From positions 12,565,037 through 12,629,036 of the forward strand of contig NC_063050.1 of the NCBI RefSeq assembly GCF_018812025.1: a stretch of DNA of 64,000 nt, given 5' to 3'. This DNA is from Megalobrama amblycephala (taxonomy: Eukaryota > Chordata > Actinopteri > Cypriniformes > Xenocyprididae). The notes below the pieces were generated by a model, which saw nothing but the letters and a program-made list of their open reading frames with translations, searched no databases and was not told the DNA's origin. Positions 1-30,827 of this stretch are shown one piece after another (position 1 is the stretch's first letter; each line of letters opens with the position of its first letter). The translations under genes and the position numbers were made by a program.

Positions 1-3000
1 GGGTTATTGAGTGAGATGCAGATGTTGATGCAGATTTTGTTAATGGAGATGTTTCTGATTGAGATGTTGTTTCAGTTGTTGTTACTGTAGTTGATGTAGA
101 TGTTGGTTCAGGTGTTACTGAGTTAGATGCAGTTGTTGATGCAGATGCTGATACTGGAGTTGTTTGAGATTGAAATGTTGTGGTTTCAGATGTTGTTACT
201 GTAGTTGATGTAGATGTTGGTTCAGGGGTTATTGAGTGAGATGCAGATGTTGATGCAGATGTTGTTACTGGAGTTGTTTCTGATTGAGATGTTGTGGTTT
301 CATAGGTTGTGACTGTAGTTGATGTAGATGTTGGTTCAGGGATTGTTGAATGAGATGCAGATGTTGATGCAGATGTTGTTATTGGAGTTGTTTCTGATTG
401 AGATGTTGTGGTTTCATAGGTTGTTACTGTAGTTGATGCAGATGTTGGTACTGGAGTTGTTTCTGATTGAGATGTTGTGGTTTCATAGGTTGTGACTGTA
501 GTTGATGTAGATGTTGGTTCAGGGATTGTTGAATGAGATGCAGATGTTGATGCAGATGTTGTTATTGGAGTTGTTTCTGATTGAGATGTTGTGGTTTCAT
601 AGGTTGTTACTGTAGTTGATGCAGATGTTGGTACTGGAGTTGTTTCTGATTGAGATGTTGTGGTTTCATAGGTTGTGACTGTAGTTGATGTAGATGTTGG
701 TTCAGGGATTGTTGAATGAGATGCAGATATTGATGCAGATGTTGTTATTGGAGTTGTTTCTGATTGAGATGTTGTGGTTTCATAGGTTGTTACTGGAGTT
801 GATGTAGATGTTGGTTCAGGGGTTATTGAGTGAGATGCAGATGTTGATGCAGATTTTGTTAATGGGGATGTTTCTGATTGAGATGTTGTTTCAGTTGTTG
901 TTAATGTAGTTGATGTAGATGTTGGTTCAGGGGTTACTGAGTGAGATGCAGATGTTGATGCAGATGTTGGTACTGGAGTTGTTTCTGATTGAGATGTTGT
1001 GGTTTCATAGGTTGTTGACTGTAGTTGATGTAGATGTTGGTTCAGGGATTGTTGAATGAGATGCAGATGTTGATGCAGATGTTGTTATTGGAGTTGTTTC
1101 TGATTGAGATGTTGTGGTTTCATAGGTTGTTACTGTAGTTGATGTAGATGTTGGTTCAGGGGTTGTCGAGTGAGATGCAGATGTTGATGCAGATGTTGTT
1201 ACTGCAGTTGTTTCTGATTGAGATGTTGTGGTTTCAGATGTTGTTAATGAAGTTGATATAGATGTTGGCTCAGGAATTATCGAGTGAGATGCAGATATTG
1301 ATGCAGATGTTGTTATTGGAGATGTTTCTGATTGAGATGTTGTGGTTTCATCGGTTGTTACTGGAGTTGATGTAGATGTTGGTTCAGGGGTTATTGAGTG
1401 AGATGCAGATGTTGATGCAGATTTTGTTAATGGGGATGTTTCTGATTGAGATGTTGTGGTTTCATAGGTTGTTACTGTAGTTGATGCAGATGTTGGTACT
1501 GGAGTTGTTTCTGATTGAGATGTTGTGGTTTCATAGGTTGTGACTGTAGTTGATGTAGATGTTGGTTCAGGGATTGTTGAATGAGATGCAGATGTTGATG
1601 CAGATGTTGTTATTGGAGTTGTTTCTGATTGAGATGTTGTGGTTTCATAGGTTGTTACTGTAGTTGATGCAGATGTTGGTACTGGAGTTGTTTCTGATTG
1701 AGATGTTGTGGTTTCATAGGTTGTTGACTGTAGTTGATGTAGATGTTGGTTCAGGGATTGTTGAATGAGATGCAGATATTGATGCAGATGTTGTTATTGG
1801 AGTTGTTTCTGATTGAGATGTTGTGGTTTCATAGGTTGTTACTGGAGTTGATGTAGATGTTGGTTCAGGGGTTATTGAGTGAGATGCAGATGTTGATGCA
1901 GATTTTGTTAATGGGGATGTTTCTGATTGAGATGTTGTTTCAGTTGTTGTTAATGTAGTTGATGTAGATGTTGGTTCAGGGGTTACTGAGTGAGATGCAG
2001 ATGTTGATGCAGATGTTGGTACTGGAGTTGTTTCTGATTGAGATGTTGTGGTTTCATAGGTTGTGACTGTAGTTGATGTAGATGTTGGTTCAGGGATTGT
2101 TGAAGTGAGATGCAGATGTTGATGCAGATGTTGTTACTGGAGTTGTTTCTGATTGAGATGTTGTGGTTTCATATGTTGTTACTGTAGTTGATGTAGATGT
2201 TGGTTCAGGGGTTGTCGAGTGAGATGCAGATGTTGATGCAGATGTTGTTACTGCAGTTGTTTCTGATTGAGATGTTGTGGTTTCAGATGTTGTTAATGAA
2301 GTTGATATAGATGTTGGCTCAGGGGTTATCGAGTGAGATGCAGATATTGATGCAGATGTTGTTACTGGAGTTGTTTCTGATTGAGATGTTATGGTTTCAG
2401 ATGTTGTTACTGGAGTTGATGTAGATGTTGGTTCAGGGGTTATTGAGTGAGATGCAGATGTTGATGCAGATTTTGTTAATGGGGATGTTTCTGATTGAGA
2501 TGTTGTTTCAGTTGTTGTTAATGTAGTTGATGTAGATGTTGGTTCAGGGGTTACTGAGTGAGATGCAGATGTTGATGCAGATGTTGGTACTGGAGTTGTT
2601 TCTGATTGAGATGTTGTTTCAGTTGTTGTTAATGTAGTTGATGTAGATGTTGGTTCAGGGGTTACTGAGTGAGATGCAGATGTTGATGCAGATGTTGGTA
2701 CTGGAGTTGTTTCTGATTGAGATGTTATGGTTTCAGATGTTGTTACTGGAGTTGATGTAGATGTTGGTTCAGGGGTTACTGAGTGAGATGCAGATGTTGA
2801 TGCAGATGTTGGTACTGGAGTTGTTTCTGATTGAGATGTTGTTTCAGATGTTGTTACTGTAGTTGATGTAGATGTTGGTTCAGGGGTTACTGAGTGAGAT
2901 GCAGATGTTGATACTGGAGTTGTTTGTGATTGAAATGCTGTTGTTTCAGATGTTGTTACTGTAGTTGATGTAGACGTTGGTTCAGGGGTTATTGAGTGAG

Positions 3001-6000
3001 ATGCAGATGTTGATGCAGATGTTGGTACTGGAGTTGTTTCTGATTGAGATGTTGTGGTTTCAGATGTTGTTACTGTAGTTGATGTAGATGTTGGTTCAGG
3101 GGTTACTGAGTGAGATGCAGATGTTGATGCAGATGTTGGTACTGGAGTTGTTTCTGATTGAGATGTTGTTTCAGATGTTGTTACTGTAGTTGATGTAGAT
3201 GTTGGTTCAGGGGTTACTGAGTGAGATGCAGATGTGATGCAGATACTGGAGTTGTTTGTGATTGAAGATGCTGTTGTTTCAGATGTTGTTACTGTAGTTG
3301 ATGTAGATGTTGGTTCAGGGGTTATTGAGTGAGATGCAGATGTTGATGCAGATGTTGGTACTGGAGTTGTTTCTGATTGAGATGTTGTGGTTTCAGATGT
3401 TGTTACTGTAGTTGATGTAGATGTTGGTTCAGGGGTTACTGAGTGAGATGCAGATGTTGATGCAGATATTGGTAATGGAGTTGTTTGTGATTGAGATGTT
3501 GTGGTTTCAGATGTTGTTACTGTAGTTGATGTAGATGTTGGTTTAGGGGTTACTGAGTGAGATGCAGATGTTGATGCAGATATTGGTAATGGAGTTGTTT
3601 CTGATTGAGATGTTGTTTCAGATGTTGTTACTGTAGTTGATGTAGATGTTGGTTCAGGGGTTACTGAGTGAGATGCAGATGTTGATGCAGATGTTGGTAC
3701 TGGAGTTGTTTCTGATTGAGATGTTGTTTCAGATGTTGTTACTGTAGTTGATGTAGATGTTGGTTCAGGGGTTACTGAGTGAGATGCAGATGTTGATGCA
3801 GATGTTGGTACTGGAGTTGTTTCTGATTGAGATGTTGTTTCAGATGTTGTTACTGTAGTTGATGTAGATGTTGGTTCAGGGGTTACTGAGTGAGATGCAG
3901 ATGTTGATGCAGATGTTGGTACTGGAGTTGTTTCTGATTGAGATGTTGTTTCAGATGTTGTTACTGTAGTTGATGTAGATGTTGGTTCAGGGGTTACTGA
4001 GTGAGATGCAGATGTTGATGCAGATGTTGGTACTGGAGTTGTTTCTGATTGAGATGTTGTTTCAGATGTTGTTACTGTAGTTGATGTAGATGTTGGTTCA
4101 GGGGTTACTGAGTGAGATGCAGATGTTGATGCAGATGTTGGTACTGGAGTTGTTTCTGATTGAGATGTTGTTTCAGATGTTGTTACTGTAGTTGATGTAG
4201 ATGTTGGTTCAGGGGTTACTGAGTGAGATGCAGATGTTGATGCAGATGTTGGTACTGGAGTTGTTTCTGATTGAGATGTTGTTTCAGATGTTGTTACTGT
4301 AGTTGATGTAGATGTTGGTTCAGGGGTTACTGAGTGAGATGCAGATGTTGATGCAGATGTTGGTACTGGAGTTGTTTCTGATTGAGATGTTGTTTCAGAT
4401 GTTGTTACTGTAGTTGATGTAGATGTTGGTTCAGGGGTTACTGAGTGAGATGCAGATGTTGATGCAGATGTTGGTACTGGAGTTGTTTCTGATTGAGATG
4501 TTGTTTCAGATGTTGTTACTGTAGTTGATGTAGATGTTGGTTCAGGGGTTACTGAGTGAGATGCAGATGTTGATGCAGATGTTGGTACTGGAGTTGTTTC
4601 TGATTGAGATGTTGTTTCAGTTGTTGTTAATGTAGTTGATGTAGATGTTGGTTCAGGGGTTACTGAGTGAGATGCAGATGTTGATGCAGATGTTGGTACT
4701 GGAGTTGTTTCTGATTGAGATGTTGTTTCAGATGTTGTTACTGTAGTTGATGTAGATGTTGGTTCAGGGGTTACTGAGTGAGATGCAGATGTTGATGCAG
4801 ATGTTGGTACTGGAGTTGTTTCTGATTGAGATGTTGTTTCAGATGTTGTTACTGTAGTTGATGTAGATGTTGGTTCAGGGGTTACTGAGTGAGATGCAGA
4901 TGTTGATGCAGATGTTGGTACTGGAGTTGTTTCTGATTGAGATGTTGTTTCAGATGTTGTTACTGTAGTTGATGTAGATGTTGGTTCAGGGGTTACTGAG
5001 TGAGATGCAGATGTTGATGCAGATGTTGGTACTGGAGTTGTTTCTGATTGAGATGTTGTTTCAGATGTTGTTACTGTAGTTGATGTAGATGTTGGTTCAG
5101 GGGTTACTGAGTGAGATGCAGATGTTGATGCAGATGTTGGTACTGGAGTTGTTTCTGATTGAGATGTTGTTTCAGATGTTGTTACTGTAGTTGATGTAGA
5201 TGTTGGTTCAGGGGTTACTGAGTGAGATGCAGATGTTGATGCAGATGTTGGTACTGGAGTTGTTTCTGATTGAGATGTTGTTTCAGATGTTGTTACTGTA
5301 GTTGATGTAGATGTTGGTTCAGGGGTTACTGAGTGAGATGCAGATGTTGATGCAGATGTTGGTACTGGAGTTGTTTCTGATTGAGATGTTGTTTCAGATG
5401 TTGTTACTGTAGTTGATGTAGATGTTGGTTCAGGGGTTACTGAGTGAGATGCAGATGTTGATGCAGATGTTGGTACTGGAGTTGTTTCTGATTGAGATGT
5501 TGTTTCAGATGTTGTTACTGTAGTTGATGTAGATGTTGGTTCAGGGGTTACTGAGTGAGATGCAGATGTTGATGCAGATGTTGGTACTGGAGTTGTTTCT
5601 GATTGAGATGTTGTTTCAGATGTTGTTACTGTAGTTGATGTAGATGTTGGTTCAGGGGTTACTGAGTGAGATGCAGATGTTGATGCAGATGTTGGTACTG
5701 GAGTTGTTTCTGATTGAGATGTTGTTTCAGATGTTGTTACTGTAGTTGATGTAGATGTTGGTTCAGGGGTTACTGAGTGAGATGCAGATGTTGATGCAGA
5801 TGTTGGTACTGGAGTTGTTTCTGATTGAGATGTGGTTTCAGATGTTGTTACTGTAGTTGATGTAGATGTTGGTTCAGGGGTTACTGAGTGAGATGCAGAT
5901 GTTGATGCAGATGTTGGTACTGGAGTTGTTTCTGATTGAGATGTTGTTTCAGATGTTGTTACTGTAGTTGATGTAGATGTTGGTTCAGGGGTTACTGAGT

Positions 6001-9000
6001 GAGATGCAGATGTTGATGCAGATGTTGGTACTGGAGTTGTTTCTGATTGAGATGTTGTTTCAGATGTTGTTACTGTAGTTGATGTAGATGTTGGTTCAGG
6101 GGTTACTGAGTGAGATGCAGATGTTGATGCAGATGTTGATACTGGAGTTTTTTGTGATTGAGATGTTGTGGTTTCAGATGTTGTTACTGTAGTTGATGTA
6201 GATGTTGGCCCAGGGGTTACTGAGTGAGATGCAGATGATGATGCAGATGTTGGTACTGGAGTTGTTTCTGATTGAGATGTTGTTTTCAGATGTTGTTACT
6301 GGAGTTGATGTAGATGTTGGTTCAGGGGTTACTGAGTGAGATGCAGATGTTGATGCAGATGTTGGTACTGGAGTTGTTTCTGATTGAGATGTTATGGTTT
6401 CAGATGTTGTTACTGGAGTTGATGTAGATGTTGGTTCAGGGGTTACTGAGTGTGATGCAGATGTTGATGCAGATGTTGGTACTGGAGTTGTTTCTGATTG
6501 AGATGTTGTTTCAGATGTTGTTACTGTAGTTGATGTAGATGTTGGTTCAGGGGTTACTGAGTGAGATGCAGATGTTGATGCAGATGTTGATACTGGAGTT
6601 GTTTGTGATTGAAATGTTGTGGTTTCAGATGTTGTTACTGGAGTTGATGTAGATGTTGGTTCAGGGGTTATTGAGTGAGATGCAAATGTTGATGCAGATG
6701 TTGGTACTGGAGTTGTTTCTGATTGAGATGTTGTTTCAGATGTTGTTACTGAGTGAGATGCAGATGTTGATGCAGATGTTGGTACTGGAGGTGTTTCTGA
6801 TTGAGATGTTTCAGATGTTGTTACTGTAGTTGATGTAGATGTTGGTTCAGGGGTTATTGAGTGAGATGCAGATGTTGATGCAGATGTTGTTACTGGAGTT
6901 GTTTCTGATTGAGATGTTGTTTCAGATGTTGTTACTGTAGTTGATGTAGATGTTGGTTCAGGGGTTACTGAGTGAGATGCAGATGTTGATGCAGATGTTG
7001 ATACTGGAGTTGTTTGTGATTGAAATGTTGTGGTTTCAGATGTTGTTACTGGAGATGATGTAGATGTTGGTTCAGGGGTTACTGAGTGAGATGCAGATGT
7101 TGGTACTGGAGTTGTTTCTGATTGAGATGTTATGGTTTCAGATGTTGTTACTAGAGTTGATGTAGATGTTGGTTCAGGGGTTATTGAGTGAGATGCAGAT
7201 GTTGATGCAGATTTTGTTAATGGAGATGTTTCTGATTGAGATGTTGTTTCAGTTGTTATTAATGTAGTTGATGTAGATGTTGGTTCAGGGGTTACTGAGT
7301 GAGATGCAGATGTTGACGCAGATGTTGGTACTGGAGTTGTTTCTGATTGAGATGTTGTTTCAGTTGTTGTTAATGTAGTTGATGTAGATGTTGGTTCAGG
7401 GGTTACTAAGTGAGATGCAGATGTTGATGCAGATGTTGGTACTGGAGTTGTTTCTGATTGAGATGTTGTTTCAGATGTTGTTACTGTAGTTGATGTAGAT
7501 GTTGGTTCAGGGGTTATTGAGTGAGATGCAGATGTTGATGCAGATGCTGGTACTGGAGTCGTTTCTGATTGAGATATTATGGTTTTAGATGTTGTTATTG
7601 GAGTTGATGTAGATGTTGGTTCAGGGGTTACTGAGTGAGATGCAAATGTTGATGCAGATGTTGGTACTGGAGTTGTTTCTGATTGAGATGTTGTTTCAGA
7701 TGGTGTTACTGTAGTTGATGTAGATGTTGGTTCAGGGGTTACTGAGTGAGATGCAGATGTTGATGCAGATGTTGGTATTGGAGTTGTTTCTGATTGAGAT
7801 GTTGTTTCAGATGCTGTTACTGTAGTTGATGTAGATGTTGGTTCAGGGGTTACTGAGTGAGATGCAGATGTTGATGCAGATGTTGATACTGGAGTTGTTT
7901 GTGATTGAAATGTTGTTTCAGATGTTGTTACTGAGTGAGATGCAGATGTTGATGCAGATATTGGTACTGGAGGTGTTTCTAAATGAGATGTTTCAGATGT
8001 TGTTACTGTAGTTGATGTAGATGTTGGTTCAGGGGTTATTGAGTGAGATGCAGATGTTGATGCAGATGTTGTTAATGGACTTGTTTCTGATTGAGATGTT
8101 ATGGTTTCAGATGTTGTTACTGTAGTTGATGTAGATGTTGGTTCAGGGGTTACTGACTGAGATGCAGATGTTGGTACTGGAGTTGTTTCTGATTGAGATG
8201 TTGTTTCAGATGTTGTTACTGTAGTTGATGTAGATGTTGGTTCAGGGGTTATTGAGTGAGATGCAGATGTTGATGCAGATGTTGTTACTGGTGTTTTTTC
8301 TGATTGAGATGTTATGGTTTCAGATGTTGTTACTGGAGTTGATGTAGATGTTGGTTCAGGGGTTATTGAGTGAGATGCAGATGTTGATGCAGATATTGGT
8401 ACTGGAGTTGTTTCTGATTGAGATGTTGTTTCAGATGTTGTTACTGTAGTTGATGTAGATGTTGGTTCAGGGGTTACTGAGTGAGATGCAGATGTTGATG
8501 CAGATGTTGATACTGGAGTTGTTTGTGATTGAAATGTTGTGGTTTCAGATGTTGTTACTGGAGATGATGTAGATGTTGGTTCAGGGGTTACTGAGTGAGA
8601 TGCAGATGTTGGTACTGGAGTTGTTTCTGATTGAGATGTTATGGTTTCAGATGTTGTTACTAGAGTTGATGTAGATGTTGGTTCAGGGGTTATTGAGTGA
8701 GATGCAGATGTTGATGCAGATTTTGTTAATGGAGATGTTTCTGATTGAGATGTTGTTTCAGTTGTTGTTAATGTAGTTGATGTAGATGTTGGTTCAGGGG
8801 TTACTGAGTGAGATGCAGATGTTGACGCAGATGTTGGTACTGGAGTTGTTTCTGATTGAGATGTTGTTTCAGATGTTGTTACTGTAGTTGATGTAGATGT
8901 TGGTTCAGGGGTTATTGAGTGAGATGCAGATGTTGATGCAGATGCTGGTACTGGAGTTGTTTCTGATTGAGATGTTGTTTCAGATGTTGTTACTGTAGTT

Positions 9001-10400
9001 GATGTAGATGTTGGTTCAGGGGTTACTGAGTGAGATGCAGATGTTGATGCAGATATTGGTACTGGAGTTGTTTCTGATTGAGATGTTGTTTCAGATGTTG
9101 TTACTGTAGTTGATGTAGATGTTGGTTCAGGGGTTACTGAGTGAGATGCAGATGTTGATGCAGATGTTGATACTGGAGTTGTTTGTGATTGAAATGTTGT
9201 GGTTTCAGATGTTGTTACTGGAGATGATGTAGATGTTGGTTCAGGGGTTACTGAGTGAGATGCAGATGTTGGTACTGGAGTTGTTTCTGATTGAGATGTT
9301 ATGGTTTCAGATGTTGTTACTAGAGTTGATGTAGATGTTGGTTCAGGGGTTATTGAGTGAGATGCAGATGTTGATGCAGATTTTGTTAATGGAGATGTTT
9401 CTGATTGAGATGTTGTTTCAGTTGTTGTTAATGTAGTTGATGTAGATGTTGGTTCAGGGGTTACTGAGTGAGATGCAGATGTTGACGCAGATGTTGGTAC
9501 TGGAGTTGTTTCTGATTGAGATGTTGTTTCAGATGTTGTTACTGTAGTTGATGTAGATGTTGGTTCAGGGGTTATTGAGTGAGATGCAGATGTTGATGCA
9601 GATGCTGGTACTGGAGTTGTTTCCGATTGAGATGTTGTTTCAGATGTTGTTACTGCAGTTGATGTAGATGTTGGTTCAGGGGTTACTGAGTGAGATGCAG
9701 ATGTTGACGCAGATGTTGGTACTGGAGTTGTTTCTGATTGAGATGTTGTTTCAGATGTTGTTACTGTAGTTGATGTAGATGTTGGTTCAGGGGTTATTGA
9801 GTGAGATGCAGATGTTGATGCAGATGCTGGTACTGGAGTTGTTTCTGATTGAGATGTTGTTTCAGATGTTGTTACTGTAGTTGATGTAGATGTTGGTTCA
9901 GGGGTTATTGAGTGAGATGCAGATGTTGATGCAGATGTTGTTACTGGAGTTGTTTCTGATTGAGATATTATGGTTTCAGATGTTGTTACTGTAGTTGATG
10001 TAGATTTTGGTTCAGGGGTTATTGAGTGAGATGCAGATGTTGATGCAGATGTTGGTACTGGAGTTGTTTCTGATTGAGATGTTGTTTCAGATGGTGTTAC
10101 TGTAGTTGATGTAGATGTTGGTTCAGGGGTTACTGAGTAAGATGCAGATGTTGATGCAGATGTTGGTATTGGAGTTGTTTCTGATTGAGATGTTGTTTCA
10201 GATGCTGTTACTGTAGTTGATGTAGATGTTGGTTCAGGGGTTACTGAGTGAGATGCAGATGTTGATGCAGATGTTGATACTGGAGTTGTTTCTGATTGAG
10301 GTGTTGTGTTTTCAGATGTTGTTACTGCAGTTGATGTAGATGTTGTTTCAGGGATTGTCGAGTGAGATGCTGATGTTGATGCAGATGTTGTTACTGGAGT
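1..10400. repeat. 111-bp minisatellite array, about 89 units
   Basis: I used the motif gttggttcagg (and close variants) as an anchor and placed 89 copies from 102 to 10342. Spacings are 99, 102, 108, 111, 114, 183 or 186 bp, all multiples of three, except four: 115 (921-1036), 184 (1561-1745), 115 (2084-2199) and 112 (6204-6316). From 3537 to 6090 there are 23 consecutive 111-bp spacings of nearly identical sequence. The flanks are more diverged and contain higher-order units (183 bp near 330-696; about 660 bp near 8461/9121; about 1,050 bp near 696/1745). The 3-bp step between the 111 and 114 forms is gttgtttcag versus gttgtggtttcag. Confidence 0.97.
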
Positions 10401-10411
10401 TAATGTATACC
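1..10411 (-). CDS. giant mucin-like PTS-repeat exon (partial, runs off left edge)
   Basis: Seen: reading the minus strand from 10409 leftwards gives an uninterrupted Ser/Thr/Pro-rich frame made of 37- or 38-residue repeats. The pieces are TVTTSETTSQSETTPVP followed by TSASTSASHSVTPEPTSTST. In the consensus unit 23 of 37 residues are Ser or Thr and 4 are Pro, with no Met, Cys, Lys, Arg or aromatic residue, so there is no ATG in frame and ATG-based ORF calling misses it. The exon starts after a long pyrimidine tract and TAG (10413-10412); its first two bases complete a codon (phase 1). By eye I found no in-frame stop down to a +1 insertion near 6283, after which TGA occurs at 6176-6174; as assembled this is about 1,410 codons. 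Known: mucins carry such O-glycosylated tandem repeats in single giant exons. Inferred: a secreted or membrane mucin-like glycoprotein. The C-terminal exons lie outside the window. Confidence 0.72.
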
Positions 10412-11016
10412 CTAGTGAAAAAAAAAAACTATGCTAAGTATACTTGCAGTCAGACTAATTATCACCATATTTCCAGTGTGTTAATGATTAGTTAACTTAA
10501 AGTGTGCTATTATGAAACAACTAATTTTGTACCAAGTATATTTTAGTTGTAATTAAGTTGTATAAATACTGTATAAGTACAGTAAACTGTATACTGTATA
10601 AAAATTTACTATTGTATATAATATATACTATACTAGTATATATACTATGTACTATAGTGGAGCTACATACTATTAGTGGAGCTATATACAACTATTACAT
10701 TTATGTTATGCTGTTAGCAACAGCATAACATAAATGTAAGTGTAAACGTCAAATGAGACCGGACAACAAGCACAGAAAACACAGGAACTTAAATACAGAG
10801 GTAAATAAGGAGTTAAACGGAAACAGCTGAGTGTGATTGCAAATCATATTAATAACCATGGTAACACAGGAAAAGTGGGAAAACTAAACAAAGGAACACA
10901 TGTGAGCAAAAGTGACAAAATAAGAGTCCATGAAAATGAAACTAAATAAACAGAACTGTAACAGGAACAAATGAGTAGTGCAATATTAGCACTCCACTAT
11001 TAACAAGCAAGAAAAC
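10412..11016. other. intronic AT-rich stretch with a perfect hairpin
   Basis: On the minus strand this is the 3' end of the intron before the mucin-like exon: the T-rich tract and TAG acceptor are at about 10412-10432. Positions 10560-10680 are TA-rich (tatactgta-type repeats). Positions 10740-11010 are an A-rich stretch of the kind common in dispersed fish repeats (many 'aaca', 'ggaac' words). No coding potential was recognised. Confidence 0.6.
10695..10739. repeat. perfect 21-bp inverted repeat with 3-nt loop
   Basis: Arms 10695-10715 and 10719-10739 are exact reverse complements around the loop agc; the arm contains acatttatgttatgctgtt. It lies about 280 bp upstream (minus sense) of the mucin exon acceptor. 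It may be the tip of an old palindromic element or a structured intron segment; nothing in the sequence decides between these. Confidence 0.85.
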
Positions 11017-11234
11017 GTCTCGGTTACGTATGTAACCCTCGTTCCCTGAAGGAGGGAATGGAGACGTACGTCAGTAGTGACCGACGAATTGGGATATTGC
11101 TAGAGAGCCCTATCAGCTTCGAGTGAACTAAAACAAGCCAATTGAGTTGGTGTGCGATATTTGCATGATGCGCACCGCCCCCGACAGGTGTACATAAATA
11201 GGAAGTAGATGCAATCGCACTCTGTTTTTCGCTG
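11017..11234. repeat. DIRS left inverted terminal repeat
   Basis: The core acgtacgtcagtagtgacc through to cgcactctgtttttcgct (11064-11234) is the reverse complement of 16279-16448 with few mismatches. The outer about 47 bp (11017-11063) has no partner in the right terminal repeat but is matched by the internal complementary region. Confidence 0.85.
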
Positions 11235-11300
11235 AGGAGACAACTGGTGTCCGCGCAGCAGCGAGGGTACAGAAACTGTGGCGACGGGACGTACGTTTCC

Positions 11301-11400
11301 GTTCCCTCCTTCAGGGAACGAGAGTTACATACGTAACCGAGACGTTCCCTTTCAGTCGGTCACGTTCGACGTACGTCAGTAGTGACCGACGAATTGGGAT
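11301..11400. repeat. DIRS internal complementary region
   Basis: Bases 11301-11344 are the reverse complement of the left extremity (gttccctccttcagggaac ... accgagac). Bases 11344-11400 are the reverse complement of the right extremity (ttccctttcag ... gaattgggat). It thus joins both element ends in one block, as expected for the template that lets DIRS elements form a closed circle. Confidence 0.85.
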
Positions 11401-12027
11401 CCCAACTAAAGCGCCACAGTTACGAAACCCCTTCCAGTGCCCAGCGCAAGCTCGGCCGCCCATTGCACTAGCTGGGACGGTGAAGGGGGCGAGCTTACGC
11501 CGAGAGCGTCTACTGCTGTTCCACAACTACCCACTAAGTAAACTAGACTACACTGGGAAGCGAACCCGTAGGGGACGCTGCGGAGGCCACTACCTACCCA
11601 CGGGGGAGGAATTTACGTGGAAAGTACACATATGGACTGGCCCGAGGGGCAGTACGCATATGGAAGTCCCTGGGATGGCTCCACCTGGGTAAGGGGAGAC
11701 TCATCTGACAGGTGACAGCAGAGCTGGCTCTGCTAAGGGAAAGACACGGACTCGCCCGTAAGGAGTTTTAAACTGTGGAAGATTACACATATGGGACCGC
11801 TCACATAGAGGAGTCACGACATATGGACCCCAGCCAACAGACAGCGTCAGCGACGGATGTAGGCCTGGCATCAGACACTCCGCAATGTCCGAGCCGAAGG
11901 GGGAGGCGGAGGAACTCGACAGGGTTCGCCAAGCGGGGAACACGACTGGAGTCAAAAGTATGCACGCATCCGGCCCAGGGGGCGGGAATGGCATTGCAAG
12001 CCGACACTTAGAGCGGGTTCAACGTGT

Positions 12028-12770
12028 CTACCGGCTAGTGGAAGCGAGTACACGGGAAGATACCGGCTCTACACGTAGGCTATAGAATCTAGCGAATGTG
12101 TTAGGTGTCGCCCAGCCCGCAGCTCTACAGATATCTGTCAGCGAGGCGCCATGAGCCAACGCCCAGGAAGAGGCCACTCCTCTGGTGGAGTGGGCTCTCA
12201 ACCCAAGCGGGCAAGGCACGCCCTGGGAATCATACGCCAAGGCGATGGCATCCACTATCCAGTGGGCCATCCTCTGCTTGGAGACAGCCTTTCCCTTCTG
12301 CTGGCCTCCGTAACAGACAAAGAGCTGATCTGAGGTCCTGAAGCTTCGTGTTCTGTCCACGTACACACGCAGAGCGTGGACGGGACAGAGCAAAGCTAGG
12401 GCTGGGTCTGCCTCCTCCAAAGGCAGCGCTTGCAGGTTCACTACCTGATCTCTGAAGGGAGTGGTAGGAACCTTGGGCACATATCCGGGCCGGGGTCTCA
12501 GGATGATTTGAGAGTCACCGGGCCCGAACTCTAGGCACGATTCGTCGACCGAAAATGCGTGCAGATCCCCTACCCTCTTCAGAGAAGCCAATGCAACCAG
12601 GAGGACGGTTTTGAGAGACAGTGCTTTTAACTCGACTGATTGCAAAGGTTCGAAGGGCTGACCCTGGAGAGATGTAAGAACCAGGGTCAGATCCCAAGAG
12701 GGTATGGAGGAAGGGCGAGGAGGATTTAGTCTCCTCGCCCCCCTCAGGAACCTGACGATCAGTGCTGTCC
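12028..12770 (-). pseudogene. DIRS tyrosine recombinase (N-terminally truncated)
   Basis: About 245 residues of recombinase sequence are open to the stop at 12028. Family residues are visible in order: an Arg in KRVGDL, the HxxR box in AHSTRGVASS, and the nucleophile Tyr in FARFYSL near the C-terminus. Known: tyrosine recombinases use R...HxxR...Y to cut and rejoin DNA, here for circle integration. The N-terminal part is missing. At about 12770 the frame runs directly into RNase H sequence (HVLVRSDST in a different frame), so an internal deletion removed the end of RNase H and the start of the recombinase. The catalytic core looks complete, but it has no start codon of its own that I would trust. 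Confidence 0.82.
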
Positions 12771-14096
12771 GAGCGGACCAGTACGTGCTTGTCTGACAGC
12801 AGCCCCTTGAAGCGGCCCAGTGCAAGACGTACTGCTAGCAACTCGAGGCAATTGATATGCCAATGCAGTTGAGGCCCCGTCCACGATCCGACGCTGCATG
12901 CCCGTTGTACATGGCCCCCCATCCGGTAGCGGAGGCATCTGTGGAGACCACAGCGTGCCTGGACACCTGTTCCAGGGGCACTCCCGCCCGCAGGAACGAG
13001 GGGTCCGACCACCGGATGAGGGTGCGATGGCAGCTCGGTGTCACGGGGACACAGAGCGTACCACGCTGCCACGCCCATCTCGGGACCCGGCCGCGAAGCC
13101 AGTGTTGAAGCGGCCTCATATGGAGCAATCCGAGAGGCGTTACCGCGGCTGCAGATGCCATATGCCCCAGGAACCTTTGAAATAGTTTCAGTGGGGCCGC
13201 TGTCCTGCGCTTGAGCGTGCTCAGGCAGGTCAACACTGACTGGATGCGTTCCTCGGTGAGGCGCGCAGTCCGGGCGACCGAGTCTAGCTCGAGACCGAGA
13301 TCCTCTGCCCGGGGGAGAGTTTGCTCTTGTCCCAGTTGACCCGAAGCCCCAACCGGCTGAGGTGAGCTAAAACCATATCCCTGTGTTCGCACAACTGCGC
13401 TCGCGAGCTGGCCAGGATCAACCAGTCGTCGAGGTAGTTGAGAATACGAACGCCTTGTTCCTTGAGGGGAACAATGGCCGCCTCCGCAACCTTCGTGAAG
13501 ACGCGGGGCGACAGGGCCAGCCCGAAGGGTAGGACTTTGTACTGATATGCTCGACCCTCGAATGCAAACCGTAGGAAGGGTCTGTGGCGAGGCAGAATCG
13601 AGACATGAAATGACCCGTCCTTCAGGTCGATCGCTGCAAACCAATCCTGGGGACGGATGCATTAGAAAATGCGCTTCTGCGTGAGCATCTTGAACGGCAA
13701 CTTGTGAAGGTACCGGTTCAAGACGCGCAGATCCAGGATTGGCCGTAACCCACCGCCCTTTTTCGGTACAATGAAGTCGGGGCTGTAAAACCCCGACCTC
13801 ATCTCGGCTGGAGGGACCGGCTCGATTGCATCCTTCGCCAGGAGGACAGCAATCTCCGCCCGGAGAACAGGTGCATTGTCCAACGACACCTGAGTGAAGT
13901 GGACACCCCTGAAAACCGGGGGACGCCGGGCGAACTGAATCGCATAGCCGAGTCTGATGGTGCGAATGAGCCAGCGGGACGGGCTGGAAAGCGCAGTCCA
14001 TTCTTCCAGACACCGAGCCAACGGGACCAAAGGCACCACAGACGCACCGGGGGTGGGGCAGCGAGGCAGAGTACGGGGACCCGACTCGGACGACAT
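12770..14096 (-). pseudogene. DIRS reverse transcriptase / RNase H, broken
   Basis: The upstream part (from 14096) has the RT N-terminal fingers motif (FYSPDFIVPKKGGG) and ends at an in-frame TAA at 13664-13662. The same frame resumes immediately and carries the polymerase motif YLDDW near 13430. A frameshift near 13310 moves the RT connection region (SLSTLKRR-type, near 13200) to another frame. RNase H follows (VVSTDASATGWG, 12940s), shifts frame again near 12870 and stops abruptly at about 12770 with most of its catalytic core deleted. Known role: cDNA synthesis and RNA removal during retrotransposition. Lesions seen: one stop, at least two frameshifts and one deletion, so it is inactive as assembled. 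Confidence 0.82.
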
Positions 14097-14418
14097 GGGA
14101 GCGGCCCGGAGTGTGGTCGGACTCTAGGAGGCAGCAGTGCGTATGGGAGACGGCGCACGGGGCGCGGCCTGCACCATCACACTGCCACCTGCTGGCGAAG
14201 TAAGAGGGGGCTGCGAGTGGCAAGGCTTTTGAGGGGCGTCGCACACTGACAGGCGTGCCCTCTTGTGACCTGGAGGTTGGAGAAACTGCTCTTTTTGTGA
14301 AAAAGTGGGTACCGGACAGACAACATTCACAAATTCCCCCCGGCCCTCCTCCGGGGGTGGAAGAGAAGATGGAACTCTCTCCCAAAGAGCTGGATCCTTC
14401 CCCTCCAGGTTGCCCGTC

Positions 14419-15929
14419 TCAGGATCGTGACTTCCTCGATCGCTTACCACCTGGCTTGGCTGAGATGGGCTGGGCGCCATGACCGCGACCGGCACTCTGC
14501 TGTTTGGCAGGTGTAGGCTGCTGCTTCGCCGGTTTAGCAGAGGCAGAGGACGGCGCAGGCGGGCGCCCTCGGCGATGAGCGGGCTGAGGCTGAGCCGCCG
14601 GCAGCAGGGTGGAGGCAGCAGCGGACCGCCGGGGCATGACATGTTTAATAGCCTCAGCCTGCTTCTGTGCGGCGGAGAACTGTTGGGCGAAGCTCTCCAC
14701 TGCGTCGCCGAAAAGGCCGACCGGGGACATGGGGGAGTCCGGGAATCGATGTTTATCGGTTTCCCTCATGTCCGCCAGGGTCAGCCAGAGGTGGCGCTGC
14801 TGGACTACGAGCGTAGACATCGCATGACCAACAGAACGTGCTGTCACCTTCGTCGCTCGGAGGGCGAGGTCGGTGGCAGTGCGCAGCTCCCCCAGCAGCT
14901 GTTGGTCAAGCCCTCCCTGGGGCATTTCCGATAGCGCCTTTGCTTGGTACACACCTGCAAAAGGGCCATGGCATGCAGGGCGGAGGCAGCTTGTCCACAG
15001 GCTCTGTAAGCTTTCTCCATCAGTCCTGAGGAGAATTTGCAGGCCCGGGACGGGAGACGTGGTTCACCGCACCAGCCGGTGGCCGTTGGACACAGCTGCG
15101 TCGCAACGGACCGCTCGACTGGGGGAATCCGATCGTATCCCCTAGCCTCTCCGCCATCCAGGGCGGTGAAGGCGGACGAGGGACCAGTTCTAGCACGAGT
15201 GCTATACGGCGTTCGCCAGAATCTGGTCACCTCGTCGTGCACCTCCGGGAAGAATGGCATCGGGGCGGGGCGCTGGGGTTGACCAGCGCGACCGGCCCCG
15301 GGGTACCAATCATCGAGCCGAGAGGGCCCGGGACAGGGTGGACGGTTCCACACGAGCCCAACACTCTCGGTCGCCCGGGAAAGCACAGCCATCAACTCGG
15401 GATCGGCCTCGGGCGACGCTACCGTCCCGGAGAGCGGCAACGGAGCCGAGTCTTCATCTCCCGAGGAATCGGGCTCACCTTCCGATGCTGAGATCGACAT
15501 CTGATCCGCAGCAGGCGCACCAAAGGTAACGGCTGGACAGTCCGTAAAGGGCCCAGTGGAAACCGATGGCGGCACGACGGGTTGCAGTGCTGCTGAGGCG
15601 GCAGGGGCCCGAGGAGCAGAGCTCGGCGGGGAAGCCCTGACGGTGATCCTCAGGTCACCCTGCCTACACACCATCGAACCGTCATTCCGGCCGGAGCCGG
15701 AAAAAACGGCCGAACGGGGCATAGGGGAGGGGACCCCCGCTACCTGAGACTTCAGGAATGAGAGTCTAGACCTCAGCACTGCGATAGTCATGTTCCCGAA
15801 ATGGGAACATGAGCTATCCACAAAAGTTGCTTCAGCGTGCTGAACGCCCAAACACGTGATGCAGCGATTGTGCCCATCAGCAGGGACCAGGGAACGACCG
15901 CACCCAGTAACGCACAGACGAAATGACAT
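14419..15929 (-). pseudogene. DIRS gag-like protein, frameshifted
   Basis: It starts at ATG 15929-15927 (MSFRLCVTGCGRSL) with an N-terminal Cys/His-rich stretch (C-x3-C, C-x2-C and a later CSHF), a Pro/Ser/acidic middle, and a Gln/Ala-rich helical region. The frame breaks near 14955: homologous sequence continues in another frame as VYQAKALSEMPQGG and runs to a basic Lys/Arg/Ser tail stopping at 14419. Known: DIRS gag-like proteins package element RNA. The basic tail and Cys-rich head fit nucleic-acid binding. One frameshift is seen. Confidence 0.72.
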
Positions 15930-16278
15930 CTTTGTAAAGACGCAGGGTTCGTTTGTGAAGCTCTTTCAGAAGGGGAATTACAGCTTTCTCGTGCTGAAGC
16001 ACGCAGGGAGTGTCACGATGTGTTCGGGTACACCACTCCCCGAACACAACGCAGGAACCGGCCCAAATCGCAACCGCTCTTTCTATAGCGCGCTTAACGG
16101 GCAGACGGTTGTTGTGAAAACAGCAGTTTAGAGCTCAATGCTTAGGCTCCTGGAGAAACTTGCGACCTCGCTGCTGTGCTGTAACGCCAACAGAAAGTGC
16201 TGCACCACTTCAAAGGCTGAAGAACACTCTGACTTCAAACAGTCTTGAAAGCTGAAGAGACCAACCGGTTGGCTCCGA

Positions 16279-16470
16279 AGCGAAAGACAGAGTGCGATTG
16301 CATCTGCTTCCTATTTATATACACCTGTCGGGGGCGGTGCGCATTATGCAAATATCGCACGCCAATTCCATTGGCTTGTTTTAGTTCACTCGAAGCTGAT
16401 AGGGCTCTCTAGCGATATCCCAATTCGTCGGTCACTACTGACGTACGTTGAACGGGAACTGAAAGGGAAC
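16279..16470. repeat. DIRS right inverted terminal repeat
   Basis: Reverse complement of the left repeat; bases 16279-16448 pair with 11064-11234. The outer end (gaacgggaactgaaagggaac) matches the internal complementary region at 11344-11365. Confidence 0.85.
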
Positions 16471-17090
16471 TCTGATTAATGAATTAATAAGTATCAGTGC
16501 TTGGCAAAATGTGATATTTCACTATTAGCTAACTAATATTTTTTCATACCTCCCAGAGGACTGCTCACTGGGGGGAGTGAATAAACAGTTACACTCTCTT
16601 TACCCACAACATAGGTGTCCTTAAGCAAGGCACCTATCCCCGAATCGCTCTGCGGGCAACATACTGGCCACACATCATGCCACTTTCATTTTCACTCCCT
16701 AGTGATGACTGAAGTCATTATAACCTCTTTGAGGTTGTAAGGTTTTGGATAGTAATTCCTATGTATTTGGTAACACTTGAGTCATTACTAGTTGGTTACC
16801 ATGATCTTCACTTTACAATAGTGATCCAAATAATTAGTAATTCCTTTAGAAGGTTGTAGTAACACATGTCATCCAAAACCTTACAAAAACCTCAAACATT
16901 TACAGTGACCCAAGTTATCATCAGAGTTGGAAAGTAGGAAATTACAAATACTTTCGGTACAGTACTTCATTGTTTTTTCTACTTTCTTGAGTATAATTAA
17001 GTTATGGTACATTTACTTGAGTTGAATAAACTGCCTATGGAGCAACAGGATGGAGCTGGTCAGGTTTTGGTGAGGGGGAAGGAGCGAGGA
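16471..17090. repeat. non-coding stretch with SINE-like fragment
   Basis: Bases 16600-16660 (ccttaagcaaggcacctatcccc) resemble the body of the fish V-SINE that is complete at 43020-43300, so this looks like a short SINE fragment. The remainder to 17090 is unremarkable AT-rich DNA. No gene was recognised. Confidence 0.5.
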
Positions 17091-17099
17091 CTCAATGAT

Positions 17100-18030
17100 T
17101 CAGGTTGATGAGCTCTTTCTTTATTAATAAAAATAAAACAAAAACAAACAAAAACTACCCCATGGGGGAAAACAAGACAAGGCAGCAAGACTGGCATCAA
17201 GGCTTGACAGGGTCAGGACACATGAGGGTACCTTAGACAACGAACACGCACAAGACTGCAAACACAAGGAGAATAAATAGGAGAGCAAACAAGGCAGGTA
17301 ACGAGGGAGGACAGGTGGGGCAAATGAACCAATAATGAGGTAACAAGGTGGGCATGGTCACGACAATAGACATGAGAGCACATGGCACAAAGAAACACAT
17401 GACAAGCTCACACCAAACAAAAAAAAAAATGGGCTCACACCAAACAAAAAACACAAACTCTAAATGAGACATGAACACGCAGCTAATAAGAGAACCCATA
17501 AGCCACGTGTTCACACAAAACAAGACAACATGAGAGCACACAGCCCGAGAAACACAGACAGCACAAGACAAAAACATGAAAGTATGCGGCAGGTGTAAAC
17601 AAACTGCATGATACACAAAACATGACAATACAAGAGCGCCTGGCTGGTAAGAACCGACCAGGCAATTCACAAACACGAGACAAGAATGAACGGCAAGTGA
17701 AAGTACACTCAACCGTGCGATCACAATAAAGACAGGACAGGGAGGGCAAGTGTCCTAATCCCGACACAAAACCGAAACTGAACTAGACATGAGTGCCGGG
17801 ATCCAAACAGCATGCTCCCAACATGAAACAAGACATGCAGACAAGAGAGCGCATGGCTCGAGAACACTCAAGGCCGTACACTCACACAAAGACAGGACAA
17901 GAACGGGAGTGTCAGAGCTCTGTCACAAAACCAAGAAATAAACTAGACAGAAGTGACAGAACCCTGACAGAGCTGGCATTTGATAGGCATAGAACCCTGC
18001 GCTTCAGCCAAAATGGTCAAGGTCTGATTT
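17100..18030. repeat. A/C-rich dispersed repeat with imperfect internal copies
   Basis: Words such as acatgagagcacacag, acaagac, acacaaagacaggacaag and ctagacagaagtgaca recur at irregular 60-250 bp steps (for example 17870-17960 echoes 17700-17800). The long minus-strand open frames here are Cys/Val/Leu-rich by-products of this composition. I could not assign a family; a transposon-derived 3' region is likely. Confidence 0.55.
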
Positions 18031-19148
18031 GAGTGCAAAACCAATCATAACTTCCAGTTCAGCTGGGAGGGCAGGGTGTTCAAACCATGCTTTTGACATT
18101 GACTCAATGAATTGGTATCACTACTGTTTTAATATTTTAGTGAATGTAAGTGAGCTGTGCTCATATTCTGATTTTAAATTGTAATCTTGGCATCTCCTGA
18201 AATGGGTCATACCATTGATATTACTAGAGCACTGAGCAGTTGAAGTAAATAGAAAAGTCTGCTCATACATGGTTATACATGGCATTTATTGCATGGACAC
18301 AGGGGCGGGTTTAAACAAAGTCAGGATCTCAGGCCCCCCACACCTCACTCCCCAACATTATGTAATATTTTACTCTGATTTGCACATAATAGTAATATTG
18401 AATAGAATTAAATGAGACATTAAAAAAAAAAAAAATTATTTTACTTTGAACTGCTTAACAAAAAAATGTATACACTTTGGCACTTGCTCCCTTCAGCTTT
18501 AAGATATAAACTTTCTTGGTTTTGGATTAATCAAGAATAATTTTGTCAATTTTCTTAGTCCTCCGAGTCCCCTGTTGTTTTAGCTATGAGAAAATAAACC
18601 TCTTGGTTTTAGCTTGAAAAATTGTCTTCTTTAACTATGTTGTGAAATAGGCTATCTGATATTCTGATTCTCAGATATGTGTTAGTGATTGTAATTTGTC
18701 TTTCAAACACCTTTATAATGATCATGTTAGATGATAACGGGTGATAGGTGCCAAAATCCTAATAGTTTGCTCTTCAGCACAGGGAATTAGAGTTTTTGGA
18801 TTTAACACGCATATTCATACACTTCTCTCGAAAGACATGAAAGTAATTGGCAGATGATCTGGGAGAATAATATAGTAAACCATTATCTACACAATGTATT
18901 TCTGACGTGAATAAAACACAGTTTTATTTGCTGCTTCCATAGACATCAGTGTGAATTATACTAACTAAATATGATTTTTTTTTGCTAGTATTATGTGTAT
19001 TTAAATGAAACCTAAAATAAACATGTTGTTGAGGAAAACAGACAAATCTTGTCTTTTCTTTCACTTCTAAATCTTTATACAAGAAATCCTGCAGGTCATA
19101 AAGAACTTTTGTTTTTCCACCTCCACGAAGAGACGTGTCCTATCCATT
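18031..19148. other. AT-rich intergenic/intronic DNA, nothing recognised
   Basis: Homopolymer runs and short AT tracts; no splice-flanked coding exon, RNA gene or clear repeat boundary was seen. Confidence 0.6.
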
Positions 19149-19740
19149 ATGCCCAGACAGCACAGCCATGTGGGGCCCAGATGGGTTTCACCTGGGTTAT
19201 CTAACTGGGGCACAGCCAGTTTTGCCCATAGTTTCCATGTAGGCTCCACATGGTTTAGCCCAGATGAAATTAACACTACTCAGTGTGCACACTACAGGCT
19301 GTTAAATGTAACATTGAATCAATTTTGGAGTAAATAAGATAATAAAGTGATAAGCAGAATCACCAAAGGACAGAGGAACAATAAGAACAGAAAGCAAAGC
19401 ACAAGAACTACAGTTGATTTCAGCTGAATGATTCAGCTGAGAATGATTATGAACTCCATAAACAGCATTAATAATAATAGTTTATTTAAAAATAATAGCT
19501 TAATTTGTAGTTACTATGATGGTGATCAGTGTTTGCTTTAGTTGAGCTCTTGACGCTTGACATTTTATCTTTTTTTTTTTTTTTCTTTTTTTGATCCGAT
19601 GTTGACTATTTGTTGATGATACAGATGTAATCATCATGAAGTGGCATTATGTGCACTCATGACAATCATTGCTTATACAATCCCTGTAACTCTACAGCAT
19701 GGAATCCAGCAGTACTTTAATCAGAAAAAACTGAAAGACA
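19149..19740. repeat. fold-back repeat, left half (interrupted by LINE)
   Basis: Positions 19155-19320 (catgtggggcccagatggg..., tgcacactacaggctgtt...) match both arms of the large palindrome at 54751-56431, in the same order. Downstream similarity continues in the word tgatcagtgtttgctttag (near 19525). The matching other half resumes after the LINE at 23366, so the LINE appears to have inserted into this element. Confidence 0.7.
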
Positions 19741-22700
19741 ATGCAAGAGACTTGAGCAAGATGGCGCCAGTGTGTCGGTCGGCTTGCCGTCAGCTCCGTC
19801 AGCTCCGATGTTTGATTGTGTTGTCACTTGCGCTATTTTGGTACTGTTCTGTTGCTGCTACAAGGTCCAATGATCGGAATACTTTGCTGGATCTCAGATA
19901 TGCGCTGGTGAGCCCTGCTTTCTATGACGGATGTCACTCTCCGTTTACCTGCCCTATTGCTGAGTGCGTCATTCGGTTACCTTGCTGTATCTCCGACCGG
20001 AGGAAGCGTTGGTGGCGCCGGGGCAAACGTGGAGGCGTGCGGGTGAGGATTAGGAGAGGAGCGGGTGCTTCTTCTGTACAGTTGGGTCCCTGCCAGCGCT
20101 CTAAAGACATTCTAGGTCGGATTGATCTTTACCTGGCTCGACGTTCGTGGGATTTGAGGTACTCTTGCCATGTACACATTGCCCTGCATCAACCCCAAAT
20201 GCCCGTTAGCCCTGCTCAGCCTAGACTGCGTGTCCGTAGTGGTGGGGTAAACTTGCGGAACATCCGCGCTTTACAATATTCTCGCTGCCCCCAGGCTGCG
20301 GGCTATTCAAATGCAAAAGTGGCCTTGGTCAACAGTAGGTCAGTGTCTAACAAGACTTTTATTTTGAATGACTTTTTTTCTCGTCACAACTTGGATTTTC
20401 TGTTTTTAACCGACACATGGATTAGTGCTGGAGTTGGCCAGTCGTCTGTTTTCGATGAACTTTGCCCAACTAACTGTTCATTTATAAGCACGCCAAGGAG
20501 TGTCGGAAGAGGAGGCGGCGTAGCTCTTGTTTTTAGGAACAATTTTAAATTACGGACACTCCCTGCAGGGAGTTTTTCCACCTTTGAACTGCAATGTGTA
20601 ATTATAGAATCTGTTATGTCACCATTGGTTTGTGTACTGATCTATAGGCCTCCTAAGCCTGACAAAGACTTTATAACAGAATTCTCTGATTTTATTTCTC
20701 ATTTTGTGTCACTGTATGATCGTCTACTTATACTTGGTGACTTTAATATACATGTTTGCTGTCCGGATAGACCCATGGTTAATGAATTCTGTGGTGTAAT
20801 AGATGCCTTTGGCCTTACGCAACATATAGATAAAGCTACGCATAAACTGGGACATACACTTGATTTAATTTTATCGTATGGTTTTAAAGTTGATAATATT
20901 GTCTTTGAGGAGGCCACTTTTTCTGATCATAAGCCCATTACATTTGACATCACCCTTTTCAGTCACCTGCAAATTGTTAGAGTTCAGGAACATTACTCTC
21001 GTCAGATAAATTCTCTTACTGCAACTCAGTTTTCTGATAGTTTTTTGAGTGGAAATGTTGCATCTATTATTGCAACAGCGGCATCGTTCTCCTCTAGTCC
21101 AGATGAATTAGTTACCCTTTTTCACTCATCTTGTTCTACCATACTTGACTCTGTAGCACCTTTAACATACACTCGCTCTAAATTAAAATCTCATTATTGG
21201 TTAGATGAGGATACGCGCTCTCTTAGGCAGGCATGTCGTAAAGCTGAAAGGAAATGGAAAAAGGATCATCTCAATGTTTCTTTTCAAATTTTTAAATCTG
21301 CATTAGCTTCTTTTCAGGCAGCAGCTAAAATAGCCAGAGCAAAACATCTCTCAGATTTGATCAGTAAACACTCAAATAGACCAAAAATTTTATTTAGTAC
21401 GATAAACTCTGTTATCAATCCCGTAAATTCTCCAGTTGTTGATGTATCTACTGATACCTGTGAGAGATTTCTTAGGTTTTTTATTAATAAAATTGAGAAT
21501 CTTAGATCAGTGTTTACACCTACTTCATCTGCTATTTCGTTTGTTAGCTCAGGGGTACTGGTTACCTTTAACCAATTTCAGCCCATCTCTCTCACTGAAT
21601 TGAGGGATTTAGTGTCACATATGAAACTTACCACCTCATCTTATGATTCTATCCCTTCATCTATTATAAAGGATGTTTTTGATGTAGTTAGCCCCTCCAT
21701 TCAGGTCATTTTAAATTCATGTCTTGCGTCTGGCACTGTCCCTTCATGTTTTAAACATGCGGTTGTCCAACCCTTGCTTAAAAAACATGATCTCGATGTT
21801 AAATGCCTAAATAATTATCGTCCCATTTCTAAGCTTCCTTTTATCTCTAAAGTACTGGAAAAAGCGGTATTGTCACAGTTGCTCCCCTTTTTGACTACTC
21901 ACAATATATTAGAACCTTTTCAGTCAGGTTTTAGATCACTGCATAGTACTGAAACTGCTTTGCTTAAAGTAACCAATGATCTTCTCCTTACACTAGATTC
22001 AGGTGATAATGCCATCCTGATATTATTGGATCTTAGTGCTGCCTTCGACACTGTCGATCATAACATCCTTCTTACTCGCCTTGATCAGCAGGTGGGCATT
22101 AGGGAGACTGCGTTACTTTGGTTTCGGTCCTATCTTAATGAAAGGACTTTCTCTGTCTCTATTGGCAATTTCTCCTCATCCTCTGCTTCTGTCTCATATG
22201 GGGTCCCTCAGTGATCCATCTTGGGTCCTATTCTTTTTAGTCTATATATGCTCCCACTGGGCGACATCATAAGGAAGCATAACATCTCGTTTCATCTTTA
22301 TGCGGATGATTCACAATTGTACCTGCCTCTAAAATCTAGCGATTCCATACAGTCTCTTCTGGCCTGTCTCGAAGACATCAAAACTTGGATGGTTAACAAC
22401 TTTCTCAGGTTAAATAGTGATAAAACGGAAGTGATTGTGTTTGGTTCTCCCAAGGCAAGATGCACTGTGGTAGAAAATTTAGGTCACTTCTCCACATTTA
22501 TCAAACCTTATGCCAGAAATTTGGGTGTCATTCTTGACTCAGAACTCTGCCTTGAAAAACAGATTAGTTCTGTTGTTAAAAACAGTTTTTATCAGCTCAG
22601 AATGATTTCACGCCTGAAGCCATTCTTATCTTTTAACGATCTTGAAAAAGTTATCCATGCCTTCATTACATCGCGGCTGGATTATTGTAATTCTCTCTAT

Positions 22701-23198
22701 CTTGGCCTCCCACAATCATCACTTAGACGTCTGCAGTTAGTACAAAACGCAGCAGCACGTTTTTTAACCGGCACTAGGAGGCGCGAGCATATAACCCCTA
22801 TTCTGGCTTCCTTGCATTGGCTCCCAGTTCCTTTTAGGATCCAGTTTAAAGTTTTATTGTTTGTTTTTAAAGCACTTAATGGGCTTTCCCCAACTTATAT
22901 CACTGACCTTGTACAGCCATATTCAATTCAAAGGTCACTGAGATCCTCAAACAATGGGCTCCTGTTTGTGCCGCGCTCACGGCTTAAACAGAGAGGTGAT
23001 AGAGCATTCGCAGTTGCTGCTCCACGTTTGTGGAACCAGCTGCCCCAGCATATTAGATCTGCCCCTTCCATTGATGCATTTAAATCCAGGTTAAAAACTT
23101 ATTTTTATTCTCTGGCCTTCCCTGCTTCTTAAACTGGTATTTCTGCTGTTATGTATTTTTGTGTTGTGTGCCCTGATTTTGAAGATTTCATTTCATTT

Positions 23199-23233
<35 letters not shown>

Positions 23234-23366
23234 ATTACTTATTATTCTTTATTTATTGATTTTATATGTGTGTTTTTCATTGTACAGCACTTTGGGCAGT
23301 TTGCGCTGTGTGTAAATGTGCTTTATAAATTAAAATTACTTACTTACTTACTTACTTACTTACTTT
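19740..23366 (+). mobile_element. L2/CR1-group LINE, near full length
   Basis: The 5' end begins near agcaagatggcgccag, a typical start of fish LINEs. A single ORF encodes endonuclease then reverse transcriptase. The 3' UTR ends with agcactttggg...gtgctttataaatt and a tandem (actt)n tail at about 23337-23365 rather than poly(A), which is characteristic of the L2/CR1 group. One nonsense codon is present. It lies inside a fold-back element within the proposed intron of the mucin-like gene. Confidence 0.85.
19761..23132 (+). pseudogene. LINE ORF2: endonuclease-reverse transcriptase with one stop codon
   Basis: The ATG at 19761 (MAPVCRSACR) fits the usual start in the ATGGCGCC context; an in-frame ATG at 19641 lies in host repeat DNA. 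Apurinic-type endonuclease motifs follow: TDTWI, GRGGGVALVF, LIYRPP, LGDFNIH and SDHKPI (roughly residues 190-400). The RT domain has a finger region, LDLSAAFDTVDHN, the GVPQ box, the catalytic YADDSQLY at about 22300, and a C-terminal domain ending at 23132. The GVPQ box is followed by TGA at 22212-22214 where family members have Gly, and the frame continues cleanly afterwards, so this is a single G-to-T type nonsense change. Known role: target-primed reverse transcription. It is not functional as assembled, but otherwise open for about 1,120 codons, suggesting a young copy. Confidence 0.86.
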
Positions 23367-25207: not shown

Positions 25208-25238
<31 letters not shown>

Positions 25239-26130: not shown

Positions 26131-26135
26131 CTTAC

Positions 26136-30617: not shown

Positions 30618-30827
<210 letters not shown>

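Follow-up and report, generated by a model that had tools for sequence, protein, structure and literature searches.

The tandem array at the left end of the 64,000-nt stretch of DNA analysed here (the window) is probably the large PTS exon of an unrecognised gene on the minus strand, which would encode a secreted or membrane-tethered mucin-like glycoprotein. The gene is possibly lineage-specific. This reading was favoured because the repeats have the PTS composition of a mucin, a splice acceptor adjoins the first repeat, and an exon 15.7 kb upstream is signal-like and matches in phase. A giant mucin-like exon had been proposed in the initial annotation, and it is retained as the best explanation with two reservations: the frame was broken four times in the assembly, and the parsed units carried no mark of purifying selection.

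Organization of the tandem array

One tandem array was found to span positions 1-10411, and the left edge of the window cuts through it. The TRF arrays extended to 10401, and similarity to other array copies continued as far as 10407-10410. A frame-blind split of the array gave 95 anchors and 94 spacings. The spacings were 111 bp (48 times), 114 bp (27), 102, 115 and 69 bp (four each), 108 and 78 bp (two each), and 112, 104 and 99 bp (one each). Division by three was possible for 88 of the 94, with seven in-frame lengths (111, 114, 108, 102, 99, 78 and 69 bp), close to the earlier count of 84 out of 88 spacings in seven lengths. Parsing of the minus strand yielded 87 in-frame units, of which 50 had 37 residues, 26 had 38 and 11 were shorter. 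The commonest repeat unit, SETTSQSETTPVPTSASTSASHSVTPEPTSTSTTVTT, accounted for 21 of these copies. The codon tests described below were carried out on these 87 in-frame units, which exclude units running across a shift, as against the 94 frame-blind spacings. Exact self-matches of 1.0-1.1 kb were observed at shifts of 111, 1110 and 1221 bp between approximately 5.8 and 3.6 kb. Because of these matches, the very homogeneous part of the array appears to be a sign of recent expansion. The coordinates of the array and of the features connected with it are given in Table 1.

Table 1. Features of the array, its acceptor and the predicted upstream gene structure
Feature	Position	Strand	Remarks
Tandem array, read as large PTS-repeat exon (exon 2)	1..10411	-	3' end beyond window
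First open frame from the acceptor, 1411 codons	6174..10409	-	Last ~37 codons are an out-of-frame tail behind the shift near 6286
Second open PTS segment, 1389 codons	2107..6274	-	Holds the most homogeneous 111-bp run
+1 frameshift	6280..6290	-	A run longer by one base
+1 frameshift	2100..2108	-	Copies differ C/T; both bases present in series
+1 frameshift	1720..1732	-	Copies differ A/C; both bases in series
+1 frameshift	1012..1024	-	A/C variant as at 1720..1732
Compensated pair of 1-bp shifts	3235..3270	-	Near 3266/3235
3' splice acceptor, T11-CACTAG, phase 1	10412..10432	-	Score 8.65
Candidate exon 1	26196-26136	-	ATG, hydrophobic signal-like peptide MYRFILYAGLTLLLSTSKST, then phase-1 donor G/GTAAGA
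Predicted phase-1 intron, 15,724 bp	10412..26135	-	Contains transposable elements
LINE-like element within the predicted intron	19620-23132	+	

Reading frame and 1-bp shifts

The frame entered at the acceptor begins TAT ACA TTA ACT CCA and stayed open for 1411 codons. The array had been described as a continuous S/T/P frame without stops, and as one frame this description failed: the first stop was located at 6176, after a +1 shift near 6286, and 97 stops occurred among the 3469 codons read from the acceptor over the whole array. Piecewise, the description held. The repeat frame persists via four net +1 shifts (near 6286, 2105, 1728 and 1020), and the five in-frame segments of 1374, 1389, 125, 236 and 339 codons contained zero stops and zero Met codons. 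Similarly, the unit had been said to lack ATG. None occurs within the repeat frame in any of the five segments, but the minus strand of the array as a whole holds 16. Coding on the plus strand of the array was ruled out by the 214, 296 and 311 stops in the three frames of 1-11000.

All of the frameshifts amount to a net change of one base and fall either in short runs or at sites where copies vary. The four shifts look mostly like assembly (consensus) errors: one extends an A run, and at the C/T and A/C sites the shifted copies carry both bases in series. The A/C shift was found at two places (~1728 and ~1020), and both times a near-identical block 1049 bp away lacked it. If the shifts were real instead, the array would be a mucin exon that once coded and has since become a pseudogene or truncated allele, and the first shift would end the protein about 1430 residues in. 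This reading accommodates the four net frameshifts and the 97 stops in the acceptor frame, together with residues that showed no sign of selection and a nearby GIMAP-like sequence likewise split over two frames. We consider it quite improbable, given that each frame-shifting event was confined to one or two copies at sites that would fit consensus error and that the doublet is missing from the near-identical blocks; moreover, 1411 codons stay open even with real shifts.

Residue composition and homologue searches

The first 1374 codons had an S+T content of 59.5% and a P content of 10.6% and contained no Cys. Each 100-residue window of this segment had 54-64% S+T and 8-14% P. A PTS domain was defined by S+T of at least 40% and P of at least 5% over 100 residues, and by this definition the first 1374 codons encode a mucin-type PTS domain. 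All six frames of the window were scanned, and stop-free PTS stretches of 100 residues turned up nowhere but in the array, on its minus strand.

Three protein searches, one with the 1411-residue frame and two with the conceptual N-terminus, returned no homologue; such searches detect only proteins whose length is 0.55-1.75 times that of the query and which have exact five-residue words in common with it. Of the candidates for the 1411-residue query, 7998 were scored, and among these two Saimiri MDC1 records were returned (38% of the query aligned, at 32% identity); they were rejected as homologues, the similarity being one of low complexity. For the conceptual N-terminus, 30 and 201 candidates were scored with residues 1-46 and 1-60, respectively, and none reached E<=10. 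Pfam and solved-structure searches with the repeat gave no match. The Pfam scan of the window covered three frames each of minus 10412-40413 and plus 34000-64000 as well as ten long ORFs, through which plus 10412-33999 was covered. VWD, SEA, EGF and transmembrane domains were absent from the Pfam matches in the three minus frames of 10412-40413. An RNA gene was rejected for the window, in which Rfam gave no match at the gathering score. Three repeat peptides had no match in the PMC literature searched, and keyword searches showed no report of the array gene in the titles and abstract openings listed.

Splice acceptor and candidate signal exon

The acceptor adjoins the first repeat directly, and the frame there requires an upstream phase-1 donor. 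A strong acceptor had been noted at 10411 from the outset, and scoring bore this out: with splice-site matrices of approximate values, only four of the 3251 AGs on the minus strand from 10411 to the right reached its score, the acceptor itself being one of them. On the plus strand, six of 3196 AGs did so. The six other AGs within 60 nt of the acceptor had scores below -3.

A filter for signal exons (ATG, hydrophobic stretch and phase-1 donor) was applied to the 53.6 kb of minus 10412-64000 and returned one candidate, at 26196-26136. An earlier, differently filtered scan of minus 10412-43000 returned in addition two overlapping ORFs at a weaker donor near 31216. With the identical filter, the plus strand yielded one donor, behind MAPALPLIFLLMIH (52629-52671), which precedes CD22-like Ig exons. 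When the candidate exon 1 was joined to the array, the phases agreed and the product was in frame, reading MYRFILYAGLTLLLSTSKST-GYTLTPVTTSAST; the conceptual product across the predicted junction begins MYRFILYAGLTLLLSTSKSTGYTLTPVTTSASTSASHSTIPETT. The signal-like exon could have arisen by chance, because the initial looser thresholds gave 0.47 candidates per resampled scan, 34 of 100 such scans producing one or more. At a donor of at least 7 bits and a hydrophobicity of at least 2.2, thresholds that were chosen after the candidate had been seen, this value decreased to 0.01 candidates per scan in 100 resampled sequences.

Two further observations were made in the sequence upstream of the array. 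At 11064-16448, in the predicted intron, a 5.4-kb region with a GC-rich middle (about 60%) is flanked by 185-nt inverted repeats (94%), and a reverse-transcriptase match lies inside it on the minus strand, near 13314-13769. This region is perhaps nested or composite, the inverted ends suggesting a DNA element despite the reverse-transcriptase match. At 28729-28792 (minus strand), 40 nt resemble the acceptor context of the array exon (AAGTAT, ACTTA, T11, ACTAGGGTATA). The similarity score near 28.79 kb was 42, whereas none of the 19 remaining minus-strand T10+ tracts right of 10600 exceeded 34, and the segment is possibly a decayed paralogous or duplicate exon boundary.

Tests of coding constraint

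The frame-keeping unit lengths had been put forward as a sign of coding constraint. Distinct indel events were counted here instead of copies, the 88 of 94 in-frame spacings being a repeated count of few events. Nine in-frame and five frame-shifting indels were distinguished (n = 14, p = 0.017 against one third). With neighbouring in-frame gaps of the same length merged, the numbers were six and five (n = 11, p = 0.12). All indels of at least 3 bp were in frame, except for one 4-bp gain that reads as 3+1. In the consensus unit, all 160 of 160 ordered 5-mer direct-repeat matches were in phase. Because the direct repeats of at least five bases are all in phase, slippage in a unit composed of a few S/T codons would keep the frame mechanically and without selection. 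Hence, in-frame length changes are confounded as a sign of coding constraint by the internal in-phase repeats.

The same property lends itself to a rival reading, in which the array is a non-coding minisatellite or satellite that seems coding since its unit consists of a few in-phase trinucleotide words and its lengths fall mechanically into threes. We regard this as unlikely. The in-phase direct repeats make selection unnecessary; however, codon-shuffled units kept the in-phase matches (95%), whereas base-shuffled units lost them (32%), which points to a codon-like vocabulary. An open frame alone is weak proof of coding, because, of 20000 base-shuffled units, 57.5% had one or more open frames among the six cyclic ones, and the satellite reading benefits from this. 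It also agrees with the four breaks of the repeat frame in the assembly and with the three protein searches that returned no homologue, but the strong acceptor beside the first repeat speaks against it, as does the signal-like exon with its matching phase.

Substitutions within the 87 parsed units were evaluated as well. Among 59 distinct single-base variants, 15 were synonymous, compared with 32% expected (ratio 1.38, two-sided p = 0.33); codon variants that differed at two or more bases, 14 in number, did not enter this test. A synonymous excess indicative of purifying selection was therefore not found among the 87 units, as a satellite would have it. Retention of Ser/Thr was not significant (6 of 29; p = 0.82, 0.43 and 0.055 at transition weights of 1, 2 and 4, respectively). 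Stop variants were absent from the 87 units against 1.7 expected, a difference that speaks against a satellite and is not significant.

The spread of the events among copies was also compared. In-frame events reached 27, 10, 4, 4, 2, 2, 1, 1 and 1 copies, whereas frame-shifting events reached 2, 1, 1, 1 and 1 (one-sided p = 0.043). With placements merged, in-frame events were again more widely spread than frame-shifting ones (p = 0.021). This wider spread is a better signal than the counts, yet a weak one, as assembly errors would mimic it. The mucin-like exon remains the favoured reading, by virtue of its composition, acceptor and signal-like exon.

Neighbouring loci

Two galectin exon matches (Gal-bind_lectin) were located at 30383-30770 on the minus strand, which is also that of the array. 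The galectin exons were rejected as part of the array gene on account of a stop after the galectin match, near 30375. CD22-like Ig receptor genes are repeated on the plus strand at 43309-46401, 51776-54261 and 61870-63508; V-set/Ig_CD22 matches occurred in two places, together with several further Ig domains. By eye, an in-frame stop interrupts the CD22-like V-set exon near 44.6 kb; its copy near 53.5 kb keeps an open frame. CD22 is a Siglec. At 37135-37688 and 35125-35367 on the minus strand, a GIMAP-like (AIG1) sequence divided over two frames and a Ras-like fragment were observed. Together, the CD22-like Ig genes, the galectin exons and the GIMAP-like and Ras-like sequences suggest a vertebrate genome, probably that of a fish. 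An inverted repeat of 613 nt, whose arms are 100% complementary and separated by a 456-nt spacer, occupies 54750-56431.

Since galectin exons share the strand of the array and CD22-like Ig receptors lie on the other, the array gene might be imagined as a lineage-specific mucin within a glycan-binding immune cluster. Its product could then serve as a rapidly changing sialoglycan ligand or decoy that is inherited together with the receptors, and the repeat number would tune their engagement. We hold this to be a highly speculative and very improbable extension.

Proposed mechanism and comparison with known mucins

According to the favoured reading, exon 1 (26196-26136) would supply the signal peptide, and a phase-1 splice over the 15.7-kb, transposon-bearing intron would join it to the acceptor at 10411. 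The repeats of 37-38 residues, judged by their composition, would be densely O-glycosylated in the Golgi and would then form a long, stiff and hydrated stalk, the length of which may drift through gain and loss of units. We infer transcription, splicing, secretion and a downstream C-terminal exon. On this sequence evidence, the array would be of ordinary mucin design and would work like a mucin domain. Large exons of S/T repeats without a nearby start codon are easily mistaken for satellite, and mucin inventories outside mammals may consequently be incomplete. Moreover, claims based on missing frameshifts in coding VNTRs require a null model, because slippage in units built from a few S/T codons preserves the frame of its own accord. 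A 2025 paper describes formal tests of missing frameshifts as lacking (PMC12776774).

A large VNTR exon is stated to be present in all canonical mucins (PMC13345508), and the VNTR of MUC1 is located in exon 2 (PMC1552070, PMC13345508, PMC12776774). The array resembles the single-VNTR-exon mucins (MUC1, MUC7 and others, as outlined in these sources) in its S/T/P tandem repeats, which would lie in one large exon, and in turnover of copy number. It differs from the MUC1/MUC7 type in its unit of 37-38 residues, which had no relative in the searches done, and in that no VWD, SEA or other mucin domain was seen, the downstream sequence being outside the window. According to the account of chicken Muc13, every mucin characterised earlier carries its PTS domain on one large exon, and chicken Muc13 is the exception; the zebrafish Muc13 PTS domain is split as well (PMC1552070). 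In both Muc13 genes the PTS region extends over several exons, unlike the array (PMC1552070).

Frame breaks are also reported for MUC1. A 2026 preprint on human mucins gives a frame maintenance of 84.8% for MUC1 in long-read assemblies, and its authors regard sequencing errors in GC-rich homopolymer VNTRs as the probable source of the breaks (PMC13345508). The parallel between the array shifts and these assembly errors would be a loose one, because the runs at the array shifts are shorter and AT-rich, unlike those blamed in MUC1. A frameshifting insertion in the MUC1 VNTR is described as a disease allele (PMC12776774), whereas its counterpart in the array may be an assembly error.

Mucins that arise anew through gain of S/T-rich repeats are discussed in the 2025 paper (PMC12776774). 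No proline-rich precursor gene was identified for the array, in which respect it differs from these newly formed mucins. The predicted array protein shares with them the lack of a recognisable homologue (PMC12776774). Furthermore, a figure legend of that paper depicts newly formed mucins with a signal-peptide exon before an S/T-rich repeat exon (PMC12776774), which is the arrangement proposed here for the candidate exon 1 and the array.
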